DNA of 64,000 nucleotides from Frankia casuarinae (GTDB lineage: Bacteria; Actinomycetota; Actinomycetes; Frankiales; Frankiaceae). Below are positions 4,323 through 54,621 of this stretch, piece by piece. The stretch is from positions 2,480,001-2,544,000 of the forward strand of contig NC_007777.1 in assembly GCF_000013345.1 (NCBI RefSeq). The letters are read 5' to 3'. Each line of letters begins with the position of its first letter. The first letter of the stretch is position 1. The notes below the pieces were generated by a model. It was not told the DNA's origin, searched no databases, and worked only from the letters and a program-made list of their open reading frames with translations. A program made the translations under genes and the position numbers.

Positions 4323-6136
4323 GCCCGGACGTGACCGCCGCCGAGCCGACCCTGGTCGTCGAGCGGCTGGACGTGACGTTTCGGGACGGCGTCGCCGGCG
4401 TGCGTGCGGTGCGGGACGTGTCGATCGCCGTCCGTCCCGGCGAGTGTCTCGCGGTCGTGGGCGAGTCCGGTGCCGGCAAGAGCGTGCTCGCCCGGACGCT
4501 GATCGGACTGGCCGGGCGCGGTGCGATGGTCCGTGCTGGCCGGCTGGACCTGCAGGGCGTGGATCTGACCGCCTTGACCGAACCGGGGTGGCGGGTGTTG
4601 CGAGGCCGCCGGATCGGGTTGGTGCCCCAGGACGCGTTGGCCTCCCTGGATCCGCTGCGGACGGTGGGAGCGGAGGTGGCCGAGCCCCTGCGCGTCCACC
4701 GGATCGTGGCCCGTCGCGACGTCCGCGAGCGGGCCGTCGCGACGCTTGGGCAGGTGGGGGTGCCGGAGCCGGCCCGGCGCGCCGGGCAGTACCCGCATCA
4801 GCTCTCTGGCGGTCTGCGACAGCGGGCCCTGATCGCCTCGACGGTCGCGGCCGGACCCGACCTGCTGCTGGTCGACGAACCCACGACCGCGTTGGATGCC
4901 GCCTCCCGGGAGCGGATCGTCGAGGTGCTGCGCGGCCTGGTACGCGGCGGTGTCGCTCTGCTGTTGATTAGTCACGATCTTGCCACGGTGGCCGCCGTCG
5001 CCGACCGGGTGGCGGTCATGTACGAGGGGCGGATCATCGAGCAGGGACCGGCCGTCGACGTGCTTGGCGGTCCACGGCATCCGTACACCTGCGCGTTGCT
5101 CGCGGCGGCCCCCTCGCGGCACTCGCGGGGCACCGTGCTGTCCCCGGACCTGCCGCGCCGTCCACCGGCCGGGCCGGACGGCTGCCCATACGCGGTGCGC
5201 TGCCCACTCGCCGACCACTGGTGCCGCGAGGAACTGCCGCGCCCCGATCACCCGGGTCTCGAACCCGGCGTCCTGTGCTGGCGGCCCGGAACGGAAACGG
5301 AGCGGGCCGGACCGCCACGGGTCGTCGCCCCGGCCCGCAGGGACACCGCCGAGGCTCTCGTCGAAGCCACCGGCATCACCAAACGTTTCCGCGATCCCGA
5401 CGGGGGGTGGCGGGACGCCGTCCGTGCCGTGACGTTCGAGCTTCGTGCCGCCGAGACACTCGGCGTCATCGGTGGGTCCGGGTCCGGCAAGACCACGCTG
5501 GCCCGCATCGTGCTCGGCCTGCTCGAACCGGACGAGGGTACCGTCCGGTTCGCCGGCGCGCCCTGGGTGGCGGCCGCGGCGGCGACCGCCTCGCCCAGCC
5601 GGGTACGCGAACGTGACCGCAGGCCTCGGCGGCACCGGATACAGGCCGTCCACCAGGACTGCCTGAGCTCATTCGACCCGCGTCACACCGCCGAGCGGAT
5701 CGTCGGCGACGCCATGTCCGGTCCGGATCGGGGCCGGGCGCGACGAGATCGGATCGTCGCACTCCTCGACCAGGTAGGGCTGTCCGAACAGGTGCTGCGA
5801 CGCCACCCTCGCGAGCTGTCCGGCGGGCAGCGTCAGCGGCTGGCGATCGCGCGTGCGCTCGCGCCGTCACCCGAGGTCCTCGTCTGCGACGAACCGGTGT
5901 CCGCGCTCGACCTGTCGGTGCAGGCCCAGATCCTCGACCTGCTGGCGGGACTGCGCGACGAACTCGGCTTGGCCCTGCTGTTCATCTCCCACGATATCGC
6001 AGTGATCCGGCACGTCAGCGACCGCGTCCTGGTGATGAAGGACGGGCAGGTGGCCGAGATCGGCGGCGCGGAGCAGGTGCTCGAGCGCCCCGCGCACCCG
6101 TACACCCGGCATCTGCTGGCCGCGGCCCGCACCTGA
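4319..6136 (+). CDS. fused double ATP-binding protein of peptide ABC importer (DppD-DppF)
   Basis: One 605-residue cytoplasmic protein carries both nucleotide-binding domains. Domain 1 (about residues 10-270) has Walker A GESGAGKS, signature LSGGLRQR and Walker B LLLVDEPTTALD. It is followed by the Cys-containing oligopeptide-transporter tail (GCPYAVRCPLADHWC). Domain 2 (about 345-600) has Walker A GGSGSGKT, signature LSGGQRQR and Walker B VLVCDEPVSALDLS, with an H-loop (ISHD) in both. Most Dpp/Opp systems encode two separate ATPases, but fusions of this length are common in actinobacteria. The signature Q is absent in domain 1 (LSGGL instead of LSGGQ), as often seen. It is the last gene of the operon; a convergent gene ends 38 bp downstream. 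Confidence 0.93.
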   Translation: MSPDVTAAEPTLVVERLDVTFRDGVAGVRAVRDVSIAVRPGECLAVVGESGAGKSVLARTLIGLAGRGAMVRAGRLDLQGVDLTALTEPGWRVLRGRRIGLVPQDALASLDPLRTVGAEVAEPLRVHRIVARRDVRERAVATLGQVGVPEPARRAGQYPHQLSGGLRQRALIASTVAAGPDLLLVDEPTTALDAASRERIVEVLRGLVRGGVALLLISHDLATVAAVADRVAVMYEGRIIEQGPAVDVLGGPRHPYTCALLAAAPSRHSRGTVLSPDLPRRPPAGPDGCPYAVRCPLADHWCREELPRPDHPGLEPGVLCWRPGTETERAGPPRVVAPARRDTAEALVEATGITKRFRDPDGGWRDAVRAVTFELRAAETLGVIGGSGSGKTTLARIVLGLLEPDEGTVRFAGAPWVAAAAATASPSRVRERDRRPRRHRIQAVHQDCLSSFDPRHTAERIVGDAMSGPDRGRARRDRIVALLDQVGLSEQVLRRHPRELSGGQRQRLAIARALAPSPEVLVCDEPVSALDLSVQAQILDLLAGLRDELGLALLFISHDIAVIRHVSDRVLVMKDGQVAEIGGAEQVLERPAHPYTRHLLAAART

Positions 6137-44458: not shown

Positions 44459-45286
44459 ATGATCAGCGGGCCGGTGGTCGGGGGCAGGTCCGCCAAACTT
44501 CAGGAGGACTACCAGTCCTCGATCGATTTGCTGCGGAAGGAAACCGGGAAGACGATCCGGTTCCAGCGGGCAACCGACTACGCCGCCGTCATCGAGGGGC
44601 AGCGCAGCGGCAAGGTCGATATCGCGCTGTACGGGGCACTGTCCTATCTGGTCGCCCGCACCTCCGGAGTGCGGGCGACGGCGGTCGCCGCGGCGCTCGC
44701 GGAGAAAGGTGGTTCGCCGGGCTATCGCTCCTACGGCGTGGTGAAGACCGGTTCGCCGATTCACGACCTCGCGGGTTTCAAGGGTAAGAAGGTCTGCCTC
44801 GTCGACCCGAACTCGACCTCGGGCTACCTCTATCCGCGGGCTGGGCTGATCGACGCCGGGGTGAACCCCGACAGCGAGATCACCGCGGTGCTGGCCGGCA
44901 CGCACGATGCGTCGGCGCTCGGCGTGGCCAAGGGGCAGTGCGACGCCGGGTTCGCCTACGACGCGATGGTCGACAAGAAGCTGATCGAGAAGGGTCAGCT
45001 CAAGGCCGGCGAGCTGACCACGGTGTGGAAGTCCGACCTCATCCCCGGATCACCGATCGCGATCAGTGACGACCTCGATCCCGCGCTCAAGGACAAGATC
45101 GCCAAAGTGATCCAGGAGCACATGAACATCGACTACCTCGAGTCCCATGGGTTCTGCACACCCGGTAAGTGCATGGTCGACGAGTCCGGCGACTGGGGTT
45201 TCGTCAAGGTCGCCGACACCTTCTTCGACCCGGTGCGGCACGTCTGCGAGGTCACGAAGGCCAAGAGCTGCACGGCGGCGGAGTGA
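44459..45286 (+). CDS. phnD: PhnD-like phosphonate/phosphite-binding protein, N-terminally truncated
   Basis: About 275 residues of a PhnD/PtxB-type periplasmic receptor: AKLQEDYQSSIDLLRKETGK, VDIALYGALSYLVAR, FKGKKVCLVDPNSTSGYLYP, CDAGFAYDAMVD. Family members have about 310-330 residues with a lipoprotein signal. Here ATG 44459 follows an unrelated 200-bp gap, has no signal peptide and lacks the first beta strand, so an export-competent start has been lost. As made, the protein would stay in the cytoplasm. The stop overlaps the phnC start (GTGA). Whether the gene is still useful is doubtful. Confidence 0.75.
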   Translation: MISGPVVGGRSAKLQEDYQSSIDLLRKETGKTIRFQRATDYAAVIEGQRSGKVDIALYGALSYLVARTSGVRATAVAAALAEKGGSPGYRSYGVVKTGSPIHDLAGFKGKKVCLVDPNSTSGYLYPRAGLIDAGVNPDSEITAVLAGTHDASALGVAKGQCDAGFAYDAMVDKKLIEKGQLKAGELTTVWKSDLIPGSPIAISDDLDPALKDKIAKVIQEHMNIDYLESHGFCTPGKCMVDESGDWGFVKVADTFFDPVRHVCEVTKAKSCTAAE

Positions 45287-46044
45287 GCGCCGTCCGCTTC
45301 GAGGGGGTGACCAAGCGGTTCGGCCAGACGCTCGCCCTCGACGAGGTGTCGTTCACCGTCGAGCCCGGCGAGGTGGTCGTCCTGCTGGGGCTGTCCGGTT
45401 CGGGCAAGTCGACGCTCCTGCGGCACGTCGACGGCCTGCATGGGGCAAGCGCGGGCCGGGTCATCGCGCTCGGCACGGACGTCGGCCAGGCGCGGGGCGC
45501 GCGGTTGCGGGAGCTGCGTCGCCGGATCAGCTTCGTGTTCCAGCAGTTTCACCTGGTCGACAGCCTCTCGGTGCTGGAGAACGTGTGCACCGGCGCGCTC
45601 GGCAGGCTGCGTGGCCTGCGGCTGGGTCTGGTCACCTATCCGCGGGCGGTGCGACTCGAGGCGCTGGAGCACTTGGAACGGGTCGGGCTCGCGTCACAGG
45701 CGTTCCAGCGCGCGGACACGCTGTCGGGCGGGCAGCAGCAGCGGGTCGCGGTCGCGCGGGCACTCATGCAACGCCCGGAGATCCTGCTCGCGGACGAGCC
45801 GGTTGCCTCCCTGGACCCGGAGTCCTCGGCGCAGGTGATGGGCCTGATCCGCGAAATCGCGAGCGAACGGAACCTGACCGTGCTGTGCAGCCTGCACCAG
45901 GTCGAGCTGGCGCTGTCGTGGGCCGACCGGATCGTCGGGTTGCGCTCGGGCCAGGTCGTGCTGGACAAGGCTGCGGGCGACCTTGACCACCAGCAGGCCG
46001 TTGCCATGATCTACCGAGCCGGCCCGCTGCGGGCCATCGCGTGA
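45283..46044 (+). CDS. phnC: phosphonate ABC transporter ATP-binding protein
   Basis: The protein has 253 residues and looks intact. It has Walker A LGLSGSGKST, Q loop FVFQQFHLVD, signature LSGGQQQR, Walker B LLADEPVASLD and an H loop in CSLHQVE. The PhnC-type extension LGLVTYPRAVRLEALEHLERV between Q loop and signature supports the phosphonate assignment. It starts at GTG 45283 overlapping the phnD stop, and ends overlapping the phnE start. It is the only gene of this transporter without visible damage. Confidence 0.88.
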   Translation: MSAVRFEGVTKRFGQTLALDEVSFTVEPGEVVVLLGLSGSGKSTLLRHVDGLHGASAGRVIALGTDVGQARGARLRELRRRISFVFQQFHLVDSLSVLENVCTGALGRLRGLRLGLVTYPRAVRLEALEHLERVGLASQAFQRADTLSGGQQQRVAVARALMQRPEILLADEPVASLDPESSAQVMGLIREIASERNLTVLCSLHQVELALSWADRIVGLRSGQVVLDKAAGDLDHQQAVAMIYRAGPLRAIA

Positions 46045-46720
46045 CGGGGCGAACCCTCGCCCGGCCCAGGACCGATTCGGTCCTGGGCATGGCCGCGCTG
46101 CTGGGGCTGCTCGGCCTGGCCGGGTGGGCCTTCGCCGCGCTGTCGATCAACGTCGCGACGCTGATCGACAGCGGGCGGAACGCGGCCGACTTCGCCGCCC
46201 GGATGCTCCCCCTGGACTTCCCCACCGCGGGGGAGCTGCTGCGCCTGACCGGCCAGACCATGTCGATCGTCATCTGCGCCACGCTGCTGTCGGTGGTGCT
46301 CAGCACGGGGCTTGCGGTCTTGGCTGCCGGGAACACGGCGCCGCACCGCGGTGCACGGTTCGGCGCGCGGACAGTGATCGTCGCGGCCCGCGCGGTGCCG
46401 GACGTGGTGCTGGCGACCGTGTTCTTTCGGCTGTTCGGGTTCGGCGCGCTGGCCGGGGTTCTCGCGATGGGACTGCATTCGGTCGGCATGGTCGGCAAGC
46501 TCTACGCCGACGCGGTCGAGCAGATCGACGAGGGCCCGCGTGAGGCCATGCGCGCGGGCGGCGCGGGCCGTGGGAGCTGGTGGCCGGCGTGCTGCCGCAG
46601 GTGCTGCCCGCGTTCGTGGCGACCGCGCTGCACCGGCTGGACATCAACCTGCGGGTCTCGGTCGTCCTCGGCTTCGTGGGTATCGACGGGCTCGGCCGCG
46701 CCATCGCGACCGGCTGCTGA
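46041..46720 (+). pseudogene. phnE: phosphonate ABC permease phnE, frameshifted and 3'-truncated
   Basis: From GTG 46041 the first about 175 residues are a PhnE permease: helices in MAALLGLLGLAGWAFAALS, the block ELLRLTGQTMSIVICATLLS, and ARAVPDVVLATVFFRLFGFG. Near 46570 one base is missing: the native continuation WELVAGVLPQVLPAFVATAL, HRLDINLRVSVVLGFVGIDG is in the next frame and ends at TGA 46720 after GRAIATGC. The last helix of the family is not present; the sequence runs straight into a second phnE fragment. Confidence 0.78.
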
Positions 46721-46910
46721 TCGTGTGTGTGCGGGGCATCCCCGATCTGGTGCTGGCGATCGTGTTCGTGGTGATCACCGGGCTCGGTGCGGTCGCCGGG
46801 GTGCTCGCGCTGGGCGTCGGTGCTGTCGGGCTGCTCGGCAAGCTCGTCGCGGACTCCGTGGAAGAGGTCGACCCGGGTGTCGAGGACGCGCTGCGCGCCA
46901 CGGGATCGAG
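46711..46910 (+). pseudogene. phnE: second phosphonate permease, middle fragment
   Basis: About 65 codons (VRGIPDLVLAIVFVVITGLG, VAGVLALGVGAVGLLGKLVA, DSVEEVDPGVEDALRATG) equal the central permease segment, including the ATPase-contacting EAA-like loop. There is no start and no C-terminus. It is a different copy from the gene just upstream, which already contains its own version of this segment. So a two-permease operon has lost DNA at both joints. Confidence 0.7.
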
Positions 46911-47858
46911 AACGAGCAGCTGCCCCGACCGGGCGCCGAGCTGCCGATCGAGTTCGCGCTGCTGTCCTTCGAGGGCAAGCTGCGGGCCGCGGGCGTGACG
47001 ACCGTGTTCCACGGCATCTCCTTCGAGGACACCCACCACGACATCCCGCGCAGCGTGGGCCAGGCGGAGAAGACGTGCGAGGCGATCGATGCTTATACCG
47101 GCGGGCTCGTCGACCACCGGATCCTGTACCGGCTCGACGTGCGCAGCCCGGAAGCGCTGTCCGCGCTGGCGCGGCGGTTGGACCAGGTTCCCGACGGCGC
47201 CCTGGTCTCCCACGAGGACCACACCCCGGGCCAGGGCCAGTACGCCGTCCGCGAGCACTACGAGCGCTATTTGATGGGCAGCCGCGGCATGTCCGACGCG
47301 GAGGCTCGCGAGCATGTCGACCAGCTCATCGCCGACCGGGACGGCAGGCTCGACATCCGCGAGGAGGCCCTGGTCTGGCTCGCCGCGCGCTCGGCGCGAA
47401 TCCGGCTGCTCGGGCACGATCCCAGCTCGGCCGCCGAGATCGCCGAGCTGCGGGACCGCGGCTGCGCGGTCGCCGAGTTCCCCACCACGATCGAAGCGGC
47501 GGAAGCCGCCCGCGCCCACGGACTTCCCGTCGTCATAGGCGCCCCGAACATCCTGCGGGGACGTTCCCACAACGGCAACGCCTCCGGCCGTGACCTGGTC
47601 GGCCGCGGCCTGGTGACCGCGCTGGTGTCGGACTACCTGCCCTCCGGTCTGCTCGCGGCCGCCATGCTGCTCGCCGAGCAGGGGCTCGCCACCCTGCCGG
47701 CCGCCATCGGCCTGGTGACCGCCGGGCCGGCCGAGGTCGCCGGACTTCCCGACCGCGGTCGGCTCGAGCCGGGGCTGCGCGCTGACTTTGTGCTGGTCGA
47801 GCCGCGCCGCCCGTGGCCGGTGGTGCGGTCCGTGTTGTCATCCTGGGGTGTCTGGTGA
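46899..47858 (+). pseudogene. phnM: PhnM-like phosphonate amidohydrolase, 5'-truncated
   Basis: PhnM (alpha-D-ribose 1-methylphosphonate 5-triphosphate diphosphatase) acts in C-P lyase-type phosphonate breakdown. The remaining about 319 codons begin at GIENEQLPRPGAELPIEFAL, directly after the permease fragment, and continue cleanly: ALVSHEDHTPGQGQYAVREH, VVIGAPNILRGRSHNGNASG, LVSDYLPSGLLAAAMLLA. The first about 60 residues, including the N-terminal metal-binding strand, are gone, as is any start codon. It ends at TGA 47858, overlapping the next gene's GTG. Confidence 0.8.
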
Positions 47859-48698
47859 CAATCGGGGGTGCGGCGGTGACCCGGTGGCCGGTTCCCGAGC
47901 CGGAGATTCCGGCCGGGACGGATCCCGCGCTGGCCGCAGCCGCCCGCGCGGCGGTGGGCGCCTTTCGCGATGCGCGCGAGCGGTATACGCGCGCGGAGCT
48001 CGCCGAGAAGGTCGGCATGGGCGCCGACGGCACCCTCACCACGCGTCTGGACCTGCTGGTCGACACCGCCGTGGCGGAGGTGGTGAACGCCCAGCGGGTC
48101 AACCTGATCAGCGAGGAGATCGGTGTCATCGACAACGGTTCGGCGGTCACGCTCGTGGTCGATCCGGTCGACGGCACCGCCAACGCGGTCGCGGAGGTGC
48201 CGTTGTCGGCCTTCTCCGGCGTGGTCGCCGTCGACGGCAGGGCGACCGAGGCCCTCACCGTACGTATGGTTGGACACCGGCCGCGGCTGGCATGCGAAAG
48301 TCGGCCTCCCGTCGCCCTACTGGACAACAGGCCGGCGCGCACTCGACGGCGCCGCGGTCAGCCTCCTGCGGCCGCAGGCCAAGAACGAGGCGGCGTGGCT
48401 GCGGGTAAGCCGCCGGGCCGCGCGGGTGCGCATCCTGTCCAGTAGCTGCCTGGAGGCCGCCCTCGTGGCGCAGGGCTCCACGGACGCCTTCGCGGACGCC
48501 GGCTCGGACACGCACCGCATCATGGACATCGCCGCCGCGTCCGTGCTGGTCCCGGCGGCGGGCGGCGCGGTGATCGACGCCTTCGGCCGCCCGGTCGAGA
48601 TCGTCCCCGACCTCAGCCGCCGATGGTCCGGCGTGATCGCGGCGACCCCGGAGCTGGCGCACCAGCTCGCGGACGAGATCAGCGGCTCTTCCTACTGA
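47855..48698 (+). pseudogene. inositol-monophosphatase-family phosphatase, frameshifted by a 4-bp duplication
   Basis: From GTG 47855 the sequence is a lithium-sensitive phosphatase-fold protein: TTRLDLLVDTAVAEVV, NLISEEIGVID, and the metal-binding motif VVDPVDGTANAVAEVP. At about 48259-48266 CGTA is present twice (ACCGTACGTATGG), which shifts the frame. The native continuation YVWLDTGRGWHAKVGLPSPY, then AGSDTHRIMDIAAASVLVPA to TGA 48698 lies in the next frame. Deleting one CGTA restores about 280 residues. It follows phnM with a GTGA overlap, so it belonged to the phosphonate operon. Confidence 0.78.
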
Positions 48699-48809
48699 TC
48701 CGTTCGCGTTACCCGGCCTTTTCCCGGGGAACGGCGCGTCGCCGCCGCTGGTTGCCTGCGCCGGCATGATGGTGAGCCGGACAGCAGGTGACGCACGACA
48801 ACAGCCCGC

Positions 48810-48890
48810 CGGCGCATGCGCATACGACCGGACCGTGTTCGGCGACGAGCCGATCAGCCGGTGATGCTCAAGAAACTCCTTGACCGGCCC
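48810..48890 (-). pseudogene. integrase N-terminal relic
   Basis: About 25 residues (EFLEHHRLIGSSPNTVRSYA) fit the core-binding domain of tyrosine recombinases, compare FVAQGRSANSVRSYALALL in the integrase at 34200. Nothing else of the gene is seen. Confidence 0.35.
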
Positions 48891-49589
48891 GATCGGCAGA
48901 CGGTCCTCCGTCCACTGCGACGCTCCTCGTCGTCGTCGGCGACCAGCTCGCCGCCGGGGGTGCGGCCGCTCCTTGCGGATGATGACCCGTATCCCCGGCG
49001 GCCAGCGTCCACACCCGTTTCTGGACCACCAGCCGCCGGGAGATCGCCGGCAGGGTCTTCTCCACGCCGTCGACCGGATCGAGCCGATCGCGGCCATGTA
49101 CGCCGCGGGGGCAGAAGCCGCTGTCGCCGGTCATCACCCGGACCAGATGGCCTGGAACGGGACAGCGCGGCCACCGGCTCGGCCCCGTCGATCCGGTCAT
49201 GGTCGCTCCCAACGCCGTCACCATCCTCGCAGCCTGCCGGTTCAACAGGTCCGTGCCGCAATGGTCTTCGTTGATCTCCTGGTCGCCGATCAACACGTTG
49301 CTCTCATAGGACCTGTTGACCAAGTTCCTCTCGTTCCCAGCGCACCCGCCGGAACCCGTCAAGCGGCCCAGATCGATGATCGTAAACTTGATCGAATTTT
49401 GATTACTGCAAGCGTTTTCTAGGTCGCACCCACTTTGGATCATGGGGAAGCGTGATCCGATGCGCACGATCGGGTGAGGCGGAGTCGCGGCCATGTGCCT
49501 GTAGCCTGCAGATTCAGGGAAGCCTCGCGTGTGTGGCGACCATTACCTCCAGGGATGCGGACGGCGAAGTAGACTTAAGGCCGATTAAG

Positions 49590-49613
49590 ATCGGTATGCG
49601 CTTGCATACCGAT
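49590..49613. promoter_or_regulatory. perfect 10-bp inverted repeat, 4-nt centre
   Basis: ATCGGTATGC-GCTT-GCATACCGAT lies 33 bp upstream of the phnW/pepM relic's ATG, in an AT-richer stretch. There is no T run, so an operator is more likely than a terminator. Confidence 0.45.
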
Positions 49614-49645
49614 GGCGGCATCCGCGCAGGAGGCAGGAGGCAGCG

Positions 49646-49880
49646 GTGGCAGACGGCCAGCACCAGCCCGGCGGGGAGCGGACGTCGACTGACGTCAACC
49701 CTAAGGTTGTGGTCGCGGCGTTGCGAAGGGATCCGGCGATCCGGTTGCAGGTCCTTGTTCATCACGAGACGACCACCAGGTTGCTGGCACCACTGCGCGA
49801 GCTGTGCCGGGTGGCCGTCGACGACGGTGAGACCACTGTCGTCAACGCGATCAGCAGCGTGGGAGCGCACCGGCTCGACC
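49646..49880 (+). pseudogene. phnW: 2-aminoethylphosphonate transaminase (PhnW-like), internal fragment
   Basis: After GCAGGAGGCAGGAGGCAGCGGTGG-type purine-rich DNA (split site), ATG 49646 opens about 78 family-like residues: PKVVVAALRRDPAIRLQVLV, HHETTTRLLAPLRELCRVAV, TTVVNAISSVGAHRLDL. This equals the middle of class-V aminotransferases of the PhnW type (VHxETTTGxLNPL, VDAxSSxGxxPxD). The Asp that contacts the PLP ring nitrogen is Asn here (VNAISS). The active-site Lys region and both ends are absent. The frame then runs into PEP-mutase sequence in another phase. Confidence 0.6.
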
Positions 49881-50200
49881 TCTCATCGCGGGCTGTGACA
49901 TCGGGTTCGGTGATATCAACAATCTGATCCACCTCGTCCGCGAGTACGAGCACGCAGGTGTTTACGCTGTGTGAATTGAGGACAAGGCATTCCCTAAGAG
50001 GAACAGTTTCCCGCCCGGTCAGGAGCTCGCCGACGCAAACGAGTTCGTCACTAAAATTATGATGGTGAAGGATGTTCTCCAGGGCAAGGGCTTCATGTTG
50101 ATCGCCCGGGTGGACTCCCCGATCGCGGGAACCGGCGAGGAGGACGCGATCTGGCGGGCCACTCTGTACCGGTGGTCCGGTGCTGAATCTTGCGCGTCGT
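49881..50200 (+). pseudogene. pepM: phosphoenolpyruvate mutase-like gene (pepM) fragment with internal TGA
   Basis: The frame reads PLIAGCDIGFGDINNLIHLV, REYEHAGVYAV, then TGA (49972-49974) where a Cys codon is expected, then IEDKAFPKRNSFPPGQELAD, ANEFVTKIMMVKDVLQGKGF, MLIARVDSPIAGTGEEDAIW. EDKx5NS is the diagnostic loop of PEP mutase, the enzyme that makes the C-P bond in phosphonate biosynthesis; DxGFGD/N and ARxDSxIAG are isocitrate-lyase superfamily motifs. Both ends are missing. A possible C-terminal tail in another frame (ILESGSAAIESRLASVAQVL) ends at TAG 50370. Confidence 0.65.
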
Positions 50201-50373
50201 TTTCGCGGCGGTGGATGCCGCTCTCCCCAGCATTCTCGAGTCCGGTTCCGCCGCCATCGAGTCGCGGCTCGCCTCAGTCGCCCAGGTGCTCGAGATGATT
50301 GGAAACGGCAAAGTGACCGCCGCTGACATCGCCTTCGCCGAGGAGGTGAAGCGCCGGCGCGCAGGGTAGGTCC

Positions 50374-50481
50374 ATGAGCAATGCCGCCGGTGGCCTGACA
50401 GGCGGTTTTACTCGCCGTAACCAGCGCCGCCCGAGTGCGGGCACTCAGGCTGGTCAACCCCATGACGACAGTGTGTGTTGA
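50374..50481 (+). CDS. tiny ORF 1 (35 aa), paired with 51516-51668
   Basis: ATG 50374 follows GGGTAGGTCC and encodes MSNAAGGLTGGFTRRNQRRP then SAGTQAGQPHDDSVC. The first 21 codons match tiny ORF 2 at 11 or 12 positions, and several differences at shared residues are silent. It ends 17 bp before the methyltransferase ATG. It may be a peptide gene or just the copied 5' end of a lost gene. Confidence 0.35.
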   Translation: MSNAAGGLTGGFTRRNQRRPSAGTQAGQPHDDSVC

Positions 50482-50498
50482 CGATCGAAGGAAGGGCC

Positions 50499-51476
50499 AT
50501 GGAGAACGTGTCTGACAATGCCAACGATCGTGCGGACGCCGAACTGCGACGCCGCTTGGAGGAGGACGTACACGCGGCGGCCATGCACGACGGGCTCGAC
50601 GTCCCGCCCTCCACCTGGCACGGTTTGGAGGTGGCAAGGCGGGCCCGGGGCCCGATGACGAGCTGGGAGTACAACCGCGCGCGGCTGGCCGACACACTCG
50701 ACGCGGTGGCAAGTCACATTCCCAGCCTTGATCGGGCCATACTGGACTGGGCCGTGGCCGCCAAACTCCCTGGCCAGTCGTTCTTCGACGCCTGGGAGCG
50801 GGACGGCTACCAACTGCCCGGGTTGCGGCAACACTCCAAGCTGCTAGAAGCGTGCATCACGGCCGCAAACCCTCAGCCAGCGGACGTCGTCCTAGATCTC
50901 GGTTGCGGCGACGGCGCGCTCGTGGCCAGGCTCCCGCTCGTCGCGCGTCTGGACCTGCTCGACAGCAGCGTGCGGATGCTCGAGCGCGTCCCACTGAGCC
51001 GGCCGGGCAGGAAGGAGACCCGACTGGTCCACGCCGATTACCTCGACTACAGACCGGACACACGGTACGATGCGATCATCGCGGTCATGTCGTTGCATCA
51101 CGTCGACCACGACCAGATTTCTCGGGCCCTGGAAAAATGCTACCGGGAGCTTTTCCCTGGTGGCCGCCTGGTCCTTGGCGAGACATTTCTCGACACCTCG
51201 GCACTATCGAGCCAGAACGACATCGACGATGTCTGCGACGTCTACTATCGGAAGATAGTCAATGCTGCGGAGCAGAACTGTTACCGCCATGCGCTCAAGG
51301 ACGCACAGATACTCGACCGGATCCTTCGGCGCTCCGGGGAGTACATGCGGACTCGGGAGCAGTGGAGAAGGTTGCTGACACGGGCGGGATTCTCGGTGAA
51401 AGCCAGCCGGACGACTTCACCCGAGATCCGCTACGGCTACCTGCTGGCCGTTCGTCCTCCCGAGGACGACCAGTAA
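50499..51476 (+). CDS. class I SAM-dependent methyltransferase
   Basis: The protein has 325 residues from ATG 50499, behind AAGGAAGG. The N-terminal about 110 residues are helical and substrate-specific (WEYNRARLADTLDAVASHIP). The Rossmann core follows with motif I VVLDLGCGDGALVARL, motif II-like LDLLDSSVRMLERV, and MSLHHVDHDQISRALEKCYR, LFPGGRLVLGETF. The C-terminus has RTREQWRRLLTRAGF. The substrate is unknown. It sits between two tiny related ORFs, just after the phnW/pepM relic, so a phosphonate-tailoring or peptide-modifying role is possible but unproven. Confidence 0.85.
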   Translation: MENVSDNANDRADAELRRRLEEDVHAAAMHDGLDVPPSTWHGLEVARRARGPMTSWEYNRARLADTLDAVASHIPSLDRAILDWAVAAKLPGQSFFDAWERDGYQLPGLRQHSKLLEACITAANPQPADVVLDLGCGDGALVARLPLVARLDLLDSSVRMLERVPLSRPGRKETRLVHADYLDYRPDTRYDAIIAVMSLHHVDHDQISRALEKCYRELFPGGRLVLGETFLDTSALSSQNDIDDVCDVYYRKIVNAAEQNCYRHALKDAQILDRILRRSGEYMRTREQWRRLLTRAGFSVKASRTTSPEIRYGYLLAVRPPEDDQ

Positions 51477-51515
51477 GTCGGCCGGTCGTGAAGCATCTGC
51501 GCCCGGGGTAGGTCC

Positions 51516-51668
51516 ATGAGCAACACCGCCGGCGGTCTGACACCGGGTATTCACCCGCTGAACCAGCGCCACCCGAGTTCCTGGCACTCTAGCTTGGACG
51601 GCGCGGAATCAATGGGCCGGAATGATATGAGGAATCGTTATGGAAGAGAGTGCCGTGAACAAATCTGA
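51516..51668 (+). CDS. tiny ORF 2 (50 aa), paired with 50374-50481
   Basis: ATG 51516 lies behind GGGGTAGGTCC, the same leader as tiny ORF 1, and encodes MSNTAGGLTPGIHPLNQRHP, then SSWHSSLDGAESMGRNDM and a basic end. The DNA match with the other copy covers about 76 bp (51503-51578 against 50361-50436). Beyond that the two diverge. Confidence 0.35.
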   Translation: MSNTAGGLTPGIHPLNQRHPSSWHSSLDGAESMGRNDMRNRYGRECREQI

Positions 51669-51954
51669 GGATGAATCTGATGCGGAAGCCCTGGCACGGG
51701 CCTACGAGAAATCGCGATCCGCTGTTCCGCTTCATCCGCGGCGGGAAGCCCTGGTCGGCGGCCATGCGGTCCGCATTGGGCGTGTGTTCAGCGACACACG
51801 TCCGGTTTCCGTAAGCGCTTGCAGTAGAGTTGCCATGCGAGCTCGGTCGCTGGGATCTAGTTCGCCTGAGGGGTTGGCCGGGGTTCCGGCGGCCCCAGGG
51901 CTCTTGCAAGGATGCGATTCGGTCGGTTTAGCCAGCTCTGTCGGTTTCGGGTGA
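51640..51954 (+). CDS. hypothetical ORF, doubtful
   Basis: ATG 51640 is preceded by GAGGAATCG. The first about 45 residues are acidic and helical (NKSEDESDAEALARAYEKSR) and could be a real N-terminus; the remainder is low-information Ser/Gly/Val sequence. I recognise no family. It overlaps tiny ORF 2 by 29 bp. Confidence 0.25.
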   Translation: MEESAVNKSEDESDAEALARAYEKSRSAVPLHPRREALVGGHAVRIGRVFSDTRPVSVSACSRVAMRARSLGSSSPEGLAGVPAAPGLLQGCDSVGLASSVGFG

Positions 51955-52544
51955 TCGGTCCTGGTAGAGCGGTATGGGGGACCGCGGGCACGGCTGGACC
52001 ACGTGTCGCGGACACGAAAGCAGGCACGCCGCTTGTAGATCACGGAGATGTCTTATGTCCTCGTGGTCTGGAGTGCGGCGTGCCTGTGGGCGCATTGTCG
52101 CGCGCCGCGGCCGGCGCGGCCGAGCTGATCGAACGCGACGGCCGCACCTGGCATGAGGAGGACTCCGAGTGAGACACCCTCTGTCAACCCTCAGGCGGCC
52201 CGGTTCGAGCGCGTGGGCGCGGCAGACAGACCGGCTACACCCACAACACGATCGCGCGGGGTCGCTGGCCGCCCATCCCTGACTCGCCATCAGTCCCCGG
52301 CGTAGCCACCGGGACCCGCCGCCGGGACCCGCCACCCGGTCAGCCCGCCTGGCGACCGGGATCACCGTGCCCGGAGCCTACGTCAAGTTCCACCGCCTTC
52401 TGCAAGGGCTTACACTCAAGCTGGCGGTAGGCGTTTACGGAACCCTCGGTGGCCACCGCCACACCTGCTCGACTCGGGAGGTCCCTCTTTGTCCGCCACG
52501 CCCCAGCGCTCCCCAAGCCCTCGGTCCGCTCCCCGAGGAGACGC
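51955..52544. other. 590-bp region without a supported gene
   Basis: I see no gene here. The last 60 bp hold the GAGGAG site for the SDR. A frame upstream of the SDR start (52449-52544) is open but has no site and no family sequence. Confidence 0.5.
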
Positions 52545-53372
52545 ATGACCTCCGCAGGTGCGCTCGACGGCAAGGTGGCCGTCGTCACCAGTTCCAGCAA
52601 GGGGATTGGCCGTGCGTTGGCGACCGGCCTCGGTCAGGCCGGCGCAAACGTGGTCGTCAACTACAAGAACGACCGCGCGGGCGCCGAGCAGACGTGCCGG
52701 CGTATACAGGAGGCAGGCGGCATCGCCGTGGCGGTCGGCGCTGACGTAGGCGTCCCCGAGGACGCGCAGCGGTTGATCGACACGGCCCATTGCGAGCTTG
52801 GCAGCATCGATGTGCTCGTCAACAACGTCGCGCATGTCCGTCTTGGCCCGGCACAAGCGACGACTCTCGAGGACTGGGGCGACGCCATCAGCACCAACCT
52901 TCGGGGCGCCTTCCTGACGACCATAACCGCGGTGGCCGCAATGGGGGAGCGGGGTGGATCTATCATCAACATCTCAACCTGTGCCGACACCCTGATGCTC
53001 CGATACCACGCCGTCTACACCGCATCAAAGGGCAGCCTGGAGGCGATGACACGCCACCTCGCCCTGAGGCTCGCGCCGCGTGTGCGCGTCAACGCCATCG
53101 CGCCCACGGCCACGCGTATGGAGCGCAACTGGCAGGACAACCCCGACTTCGATCGAAGCTGGAGCGCCGTCATTCCGCTGGGCCGCATGGCGACGCCCGA
53201 GGACTACATCGGCCCGCTGGTGTTCCTGGCGTCGGACGCCTCGTCGTTCGTCACCGGGGAGATCCTCCACGTCGACGGGGGCTGGACACTCCAGGGCCCT
53301 GCCCCGGACATGCGGCACTACGACTTCGAGACGGACCGGCATCGCGGGCGAGGAGGCCCTGACAGATCTTGA
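52545..53372 (+). CDS. SDR-family oxidoreductase
   Basis: The protein has 275 residues from ATG 52545, just behind GAGGAG. Rossmann motif VTSSSKGIGRALA, NNVA in place of NNAG, active-site Ser in NISTCAD and YTASK for the Tyr/Lys pair; C-terminus FVTGEILHVDGGW. NAD(P)-dependent reduction or oxidation of an unknown substrate. Unusual points are TSSSKGIG (Ser for the first Gly) and NNVA. The tail after GGW is about 30 residues longer than normal and His/Asp/Arg-rich. It is convergent with the LacI-type regulator. Confidence 0.85.
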   Translation: MTSAGALDGKVAVVTSSSKGIGRALATGLGQAGANVVVNYKNDRAGAEQTCRRIQEAGGIAVAVGADVGVPEDAQRLIDTAHCELGSIDVLVNNVAHVRLGPAQATTLEDWGDAISTNLRGAFLTTITAVAAMGERGGSIINISTCADTLMLRYHAVYTASKGSLEAMTRHLALRLAPRVRVNAIAPTATRMERNWQDNPDFDRSWSAVIPLGRMATPEDYIGPLVFLASDASSFVTGEILHVDGGWTLQGPAPDMRHYDFETDRHRGRGGPDRS

Positions 53373-53577
53373 ACTGCTGCTTGCGGCGTTCCGCGAGTCC
53401 ATCGTCTCGCGCGGGCTGCGGATCGCCGCGCTGGGGCTGCTACGGGCCCCACTCTCCTACATAGCCATCGACAAGGAGCCATCCGCGACGGCACCGCATA
53501 ACGACGAGCGCGCCATAAGAAGGTGTTTGAGATCGTCGGTTGGACGATGGGACCGCGGGCGGCATAAGCCGGCGGAG

Positions 53578-54621
53578 TTATGTTGTTCCGCTCGCGGGGC
53601 GGCACGTCGTGTCACGGATCTCGATGCTCACGGGCAGCACGACCACTTCCGAGGCGTCCAGGTTCTGGGAAGCATCCGGAACAGCGTCGAGGAGACTGAG
53701 CAGCAACTCGGCGGCGATCTTCCCCTGACGGGCCAGCGGCTGGACGACCGTCGTCAGCTCGAACACCTCTGCCTTGTCGTGCCCGCCGAAGCCGATAACA
53801 GACATGTCCTCCGGCACGCGGAGCCTGGCACGGCGCAACGCCCGCAGCGCACCCATCGCCATCTCGTCGTCCGCGACGAACACCGCCGTGGGCGGCGACT
53901 CGACCGAGAACAGCTCAGCCATGGCCCGCTCACCTCCCCGCCAGGTAAAACCCCCGACCGCCTCCAACCCCGGGTCACATTCGATACCGGCAGCCGCGAG
54001 AGCCTCGCGATACCCGCGCCGCCGATCCGCGGAAGCGGTGGAAAGCGCCGTCTCGCGATTATCTGATCCGTCCCCGGCCGCCTCACCCGAGATCAGCCCG
54101 ATCCGCCGATGACCCAGATTGATCAGGTGCTGCACCGCCGTACGGGCACCGCCGACGTCATCGACCCGCACGCTGGGGAAACCGGGCACGCTCGCGCCGA
54201 CCAGAACACCTGGTATGTTAAGCGCTTGTAGGGAGCGCATCTCCATCAGCGTGAGAGGTGGACACGGGACGAGTACCGCATCGACCCGCTTACGCAGCGG
54301 CAGCGCATCGAAGGGGCCCGAGTCGTCCCCGGGGTTGTACAGCAACAGATCCAGCCCGGCCTCCCGCAGCACCGCCTCGGCCCCCCTGAGGACCTGGAGG
54401 AAAACCCAGCCGGTCAGATCCGCGATCACCCCGATCGTGCGCGTGTGCCCGCTGGCCAGCCGGGACGCCTGCGGCGACGCCACGTACTCCAGCTGCGCGG
54501 CAGCCTCCCGCACCCGTCGTCGGGTGCTTTCGGCGACGTAGGGTAGTCCACGCAACGCCCGCGACACCGTCGCCGTGGAGACGCCCGCCAACGCGGCCAC
54601 CTCCTCGATGCTGCCGCCCAT
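53578..54621 (-). CDS. LacI-family transcriptional regulator
   Basis: The protein has 347 residues from the ATG at 54621, behind GAGGAATCC; the longer frame has no site. HTH and hinge: SIEEVAALAGVSTATVSRAL and VAESTRRRVREAAAQLEY with the hinge AxxLASG. The effector-binding domain is periplasmic-binding-like (IGVIADLTGWVFLQVLRG, HRRIGLISGEAAG, PTAVFVADDEMAMGALRAL, VIGFGGHD). Such regulators respond to sugars. A LacI-style site (CGTTTGCAAGCG, 54715-54726) lies about 95 bp upstream, suggesting autoregulation. No sugar genes are adjacent. Confidence 0.92.
   Translation of the reverse strand: MGGSIEEVAALAGVSTATVSRALRGLPYVAESTRRRVREAAAQLEYVASPQASRLASGHTRTIGVIADLTGWVFLQVLRGAEAVLREAGLDLLLYNPGDDSGPFDALPLRKRVDAVLVPCPPLTLMEMRSLQALNIPGVLVGASVPGFPSVRVDDVGGARTAVQHLINLGHRRIGLISGEAAGDGSDNRETALSTASADRRRGYREALAAAGIECDPGLEAVGGFTWRGGERAMAELFSVESPPTAVFVADDEMAMGALRALRRARLRVPEDMSVIGFGGHDKAEVFELTTVVQPLARQGKIAAELLLSLLDAVPDASQNLDASEVVVLPVSIEIRDTTCRPASGTT

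Follow-up and report, generated by a model that had tools for sequence, protein, structure and literature searches.

The locus at positions 49688-50369 (+) of the window, the 64,000-nucleotide stretch of DNA analyzed here (bases 2480001-2544000 of the single-contig genome, 5,433,628 bases, of the nitrogen-fixing soil bacterium Frankia casuarinae), is very probably the pseudogene of an adjacent, co-directional gene pair, phnW-like and pepM, from a phosphonate-biosynthesis cluster that was most likely acquired horizontally and then lost. It consists of three collinear pieces, the middle of PhnW, the middle of PepM and the PepM C-terminus, with frame changes, an internal stop and missing segments. 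When intact, PepM would have converted phosphoenolpyruvate to phosphonopyruvate, and the aminotransferase would have used a phosphono-aldehyde or phosphono-oxoacid further along the pathway as its substrate. The middles of phnW and pepM would have been brought together by one deletion; another would have taken out an internal part of pepM, and point changes would also have arisen. The relic has no function now. The relic shows that this small-genome Frankia lineage formerly had, and then lost, a phosphonate-making capacity, probably of another lineage than that of its relatives and lying beside a decaying phosphonate-uptake set.

The first piece (49688-49891, +) lies in the frame of 49646, encodes 68 residues and matched TIGR03301, the model of PhnW/AepZ-type class V aminotransferases, over residues 109-176 of 355 (E 4.5e-15). 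It was the top match to TIGR03301 in the genome, and TIGR03301 was the best NCBIfam model reported for it; its score of 55.9 bits, that of a fragment only, is below the curated cut-off of 360.8. The piece could be aligned to PhnW structures, with the HHETTT and ISS core kept, and is 48% identical over 56 amino acids to PhnW of Kribbella. Homology ends after GAHRLDL, ahead of the segment with the PLP-binding lysine.

The second piece (49882-50208, +; homology fades at ~50196) matched TIGR02320, the PEP mutase model, over residues 79-190 of 284 with 88.3 bits (E 4.3e-25), compared to 69.3 bits (E 2.9e-19) for phosphonopyruvate hydrolase and 64.2 bits (E 1.1e-17) for methylisocitrate lyase. Its best structure match was PDB 5unc, which is named PEP phosphomutase (E 1.5e-24). 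The motif EDKAFPKRNS, read from the sequence at 49978-50007 (+), conforms to EDKx5NS, which parts of PMC12723261 and PMC6697681 use as a criterion for PEP mutase (PepM/Ppm/AepX; TIGR02320, PF13714). A six-frame scan of the window gave a single EDKx5NS, and none of 200 shuffles contained one. Among the seven PF13714 matches in the genome only the relic carries EDKx5NS in any frame of the stretches around these loci. The earlier note, made from the letters of this DNA, had named EDKAFPKRNS as the PEP mutase signature behind a PhnW-type fragment; both assignments were borne out.

A profile was built from 62 PEP-mutase-family relatives, namely 57 of 80 loci (those left out were mostly from Burkholderiaceae) and five others; EDKx5NS is present in 58 of the 62 and absent from L120, L137, L147 and L161. 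When 1268 six-frame segments from the window were searched with this profile (E <=1), three matches were obtained, ordered along the strand: 49831-49971 (E 4.9e-11), 49975-50295 (E 1.8e-23) and 50187-50366 (E 0.0037). The first two are a single piece split by a TGA, while the third aligns with profile positions 245-290 of 293. With Kribbella PepM as single query the same three segments were obtained (E 2.3e-6, 2.2e-17 and 0.025), along with three weak, unrelated segments of the window (E 0.71-0.91). The third piece of the relic (50187-50369, +), in another frame, is the PepM C-terminus with its stop codon TAG (50367-50369). Since 50187-50366 matches both the end of the profile and the C-terminus of Kribbella PepM, the 3' end of pepM is retained. 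Taken alone this C-terminal match is modestly significant (E 0.0037), and it is order and position that make the assignment probable. Of the missing ends claimed before, the PhnW N-terminus is indeed lost; the PepM 3' end with its stop is present after a second gap. A chance occurrence of EDKx5NS was rejected on the family matches, the collinear PepM segments and the shuffles. Methylisocitrate lyase, which had been proposed as the outcome that would contradict a PEP mutase, was rejected on the profile scores and on the tree, in which the PepM rows including the relic are split from four methylisocitrate-lyase-like rows with 100/100 support.

The closest matching gene pair is that of Kribbella steppae, another actinobacterium, and not one of the own genus. 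Its phnW-pepM pair (L100:5566-7708) resembles the relic in order, strand, the KRNSF..GQELAD loop and the C-terminus, and differs in that its reading frames are open; over the aligned parts PhnW is 48% and PepM 41% identical. Gene arrangement was compared over 86 PEP-mutase-family loci (EDKx5NS in some frame in 81; L044 and L115 cover one stretch). A PhnW-like match is present in at least 47 of them, 44 downstream, two on the other strand and one upstream. Only in Kribbella steppae is the phnW-like gene directly upstream of pepM on the same strand, and this locus also holds the best match to the PhnW fragment among the loci. As flanks are short at some loci (less than 2.5 kb upstream in two of the 86, less than 4 kb after the start of the match in seven), these counts of arrangements are lower bounds. 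The Kribbella steppae locus further carries asparagine-synthase-like, nucleotidyltransferase-like, transketolase-like and methyltransferase genes, none of which was found in the window; among 11 reading frames of L100 searched there, only phnW and pepM gave assigned matches. In addition, a frame without assignment, o410, showed 70% identity over 20 residues to 48957-49016 (-) with the low-complexity filter off (E 3.7e-5).

Several observations bear on the origin of the relic. The nearest relatives of its PepM found by a search of genome contigs are ~50% identical; at 1e-3 the class yielded relatives in 134 of the 393 genomes searched, and the top one from another genome is 49% identical. The Kribbella pair is rare: within its family, at 1e-25, a match to its PepM was found in Kribbella steppae itself and in just one of the 37 other genomes (two of 38 in all), the latter 31% identical. 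At 1e-35 matches to Kribbella PepM were found in four of 35 genomes of Frankia's order, all from Frankia's family, and in at least 14 of 396 genomes of the phylum, with 41% identity as the best among the matches listed. The GC content is 62-64% at 49000-50500 and 69% for the window. An open methyltransferase gene (50475-51476, +; Pfam Methyltransf_25, E 1.5e-13) follows the relic, with a GC content of 64.5%, close to that of the relic pieces. No ortholog-like match to it was found in 12 congeners (best 43% over ~100 amino acids), and at 1e-15 relatives were found in the own genome alone of 393, among the matches listed. The gene is flanked by the two copies found in the genome of a 91-bp direct repeat, which are 77% identical: copy 1 (50346-50436, +) overlaps the end of the pepM remnant and copy 2 (51488-51578, +) lies 3' of the gene. 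The methyltransferase gene is possibly a survivor of the same acquired block. Together, the rare Kribbella pair, the tree, the lower GC content and the methyltransferase gene without congener ortholog suggest that the relic is part of such a block.

In the tree, the relic, Kribbella and Nocardia takedensis form a weak group (83/62), to which L104, L119 and L124 are loosely attached (84/39). A quick tree comprised 70 rows and a careful tree 35 of these, neither with a row for a known phosphonopyruvate hydrolase; L057 and L003 were left out as outgroup rows. An alternative, though an unlikely one, is that the relic descends vertically from the PepM cluster still carried by other Frankia and decayed in place. 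Strong PepM matches (>220 bits) with EDKx5NS are indeed present in three of 12 congeners (L042-L044), each with a Ppd-like gene beside PepM; two are full length, and in F. canadensis the frame is open from profile residue 50 onwards only. However, the relic is only 42-47% identical to these three, none of the three loci has a PhnW-like match at 1e-5, and in the tree they represent another PepM lineage. Forcing the relic to group with them was 15.3 log-likelihood units worse (p-AU 0.025, in a clade test run once the quick first tree was known, and with long branches involved). Because the relatives are ~50% identical, the join at 83/62 is weak and branches are long, the horizontal origin is one that we infer only. 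No long DNA match to the stretch upstream of the relic was found in the 12 congeners, only short matches among those listed. In strain CcI3 the largest transposase cluster, at 2-2.5 Mb, is tied to gene deletions according to PMC2770080; if coordinates agree, the relic sits slightly beyond this range, near 2.53 Mb. One of the Frankia loci (L043:2870-13101) holds, besides full-length PepM and the Ppd-like gene, genes for an aldehyde dehydrogenase, a 2-hydroxyacid dehydrogenase and an iron alcohol dehydrogenase.

Directly upstream of the relic lies a decayed phosphonate uptake and metabolism set (44459-48698, +), in which phnD and phnC are open, phnE is truncated and accompanied by a second phnE piece, phnM lacks ~57 N-terminal residues, and an inositol-monophosphatase-like gene is split over two frames. 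With the phnD, phnC, phnE and phnM remnants so close, the relic could be read as catabolic, i.e. as phosphonopyruvate hydrolase and PhnW of a phosphonate-degradation set, and PhnW does open a known degradation route for 2-aminoethylphosphonate (PMC8154272). We consider this very improbable: the PEP mutase model exceeds that of phosphonopyruvate hydrolase by 19 bits, and the loop of the relic has NS where phosphonopyruvate hydrolase 2dua has TS. The row with a TS loop, L120, stood elsewhere in the quick tree and was left out of the careful tree. For seven open frames in 48258-49494 and 51592-54066 no Pfam match was found at E 0.1, and a stretch near 48900 (-) that by eye resembles a recombinase N-terminus found no confirmation in this Pfam search.

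The biosynthetic gene pair is clearly non-functional today, an ordinary pseudogene of known families. In comparison with Kribbella steppae, the relic lacks ~830 bp between its PhnW and PepM pieces and ~160 bp inside PepM, before the C-terminal piece, and the frame changes at both junctions, the first of which lies at ~49885. Unlike intact PhnW/AepZ, the relic keeps 68 of 355 profile positions, without the N-terminus, the C-terminus and the PLP-lysine region, and the VDA motif reads VNA (Asp to Asn). In PepM, an in-frame TGA (49972-49974, +) precedes the signature loop, and Gly replaces the first Asp of DxD (AGCD versus xDxD of the relatives); the pattern was located in 51 of the 57 relatives, all of which have D at this position. 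The functional roles assigned to the DxD and VDA aspartates and to the PLP lysine come from published work on Mytilus PEP mutase and Salmonella PhnW. The locus contains no complete PEP mutase reading frame with both conserved Asp residues; truncated, split between frames, with an internal TGA and Gly in DxD, the relic cannot be an active PEP mutase. A sequencing error may lie behind any single lesion. The previous verdict of a dead locus, drawn from the TGA and the missing ends, stands with the TGA, the frame changes, the missing segments and the lost conserved Asp. In the assigned frames GC is 0.59-0.71, 0.42-0.49 and 0.75-0.81 at codon positions 1, 2 and 3, which is still coding-like, as expected of a former gene. 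That the TGA is instead recoded as selenocysteine in a working gene has next to no chance of being right: it coincides exactly with the Cys of 48 of the 57 relatives, but TGC or TGT to TGA is a single substitution, a stable hairpin behind the TGA is absent (z +1.78; 197 of 200 shuffles fold as stably or more so), and recoding leaves the missing segments, the frame changes and the lost conserved Asp.

The PhnW and PepM pieces had also been described as fused. They are juxtaposed in differing frames, and no single frame holds both domains; in Kribbella the two genes are adjacent and separate. In the accessible part of the PMC6697681 inventory of 1485 EDKx5NS proteins, fusions to nucleotidyltransferase and TPP-binding domains were seen and none to an aminotransferase. 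A true phnW-pepM fusion is thus disfavoured, and the relic was probably never a fused gene.

In the route to 2-aminoethylphosphonate, phosphonopyruvate decarboxylase (Ppd) acts between PepM and PhnW. A search of the window with three Ppd-like queries yielded no Ppd (the top match had E 0.35), whereas Ppd-like genes were found in at least 70 of the 86 loci at E 1e-10, a count that was unchanged when a fourth, wrong-frame query was included, at different E limits. A Ppd-like gene was also not found in L100, L104, L105, L119 and L124 (14.3 kb each), the loci of the relic's tentative clade. Phosphonopyruvate can safely be taken as the first intermediate; 2-aminoethylphosphonate, the product proposed before, appears doubtful for the relic's pathway, since Ppd was found neither in the window nor in these five loci. 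Tentatively, the relic and its Kribbella cousin may represent a Ppd-free branch in which a PhnW-family enzyme, its gene lying immediately ahead of pepM and with a transketolase-like partner, acts on phosphonopyruvate or a derivative, with a product other than 2-aminoethylphosphonate; this is conceivable rather than likely. PnaA is known to transaminate phosphonopyruvate to phosphonoalanine, but PMC11867202 likens its reaction to that of aspartate aminotransferase. As the grouping of the five loci with the relic is weak, the Ppd-less reading is a lead, not proof. In Kribbella steppae the transketolase-like gene adjoins pepM; a transketolase-like match is present in L105 (Nocardia takedensis) as well. 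The Kribbella steppae locus (L100:1932-12967) appears to be a Ppd-less phosphonate cluster, with phnW-pepM and the transketolase-, asparagine-synthase-, nucleotidyltransferase-like and methyltransferase genes. A pointer to this rare open cluster, with PepM, a PhnW-type enzyme and no Ppd found nearby, is the more useful outcome of the relic.

A literature search found no paper joining Frankia with phosphonate and PEP mutase, none on Kribbella with phosphonate and pepM, and no mention of Frankia in the phosphonate-biosynthesis literature found. PMC3848822 matched a search on Frankia, pepM and phosphonate in actinomycetes, and both PMC3848822 and PMC9760358 matched one on Frankia alni with a phosphonate gene cluster.

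Two other PEP-mutase-family remnants, with an EDNTLDK loop, were observed elsewhere in the genome, near 1.838 Mb (L003:1396-2148, -) and 4.135 Mb (L045, ~4807-5311, +). They have 564 bp in common at 93% identity, with shifted frames, and together with the relic in the window they make three broken members of the PEP mutase family. A LacI-family regulator gene of the window (53575-54432) is 93% identical over 879 bp to a copy beside the 1.838 Mb remnant.
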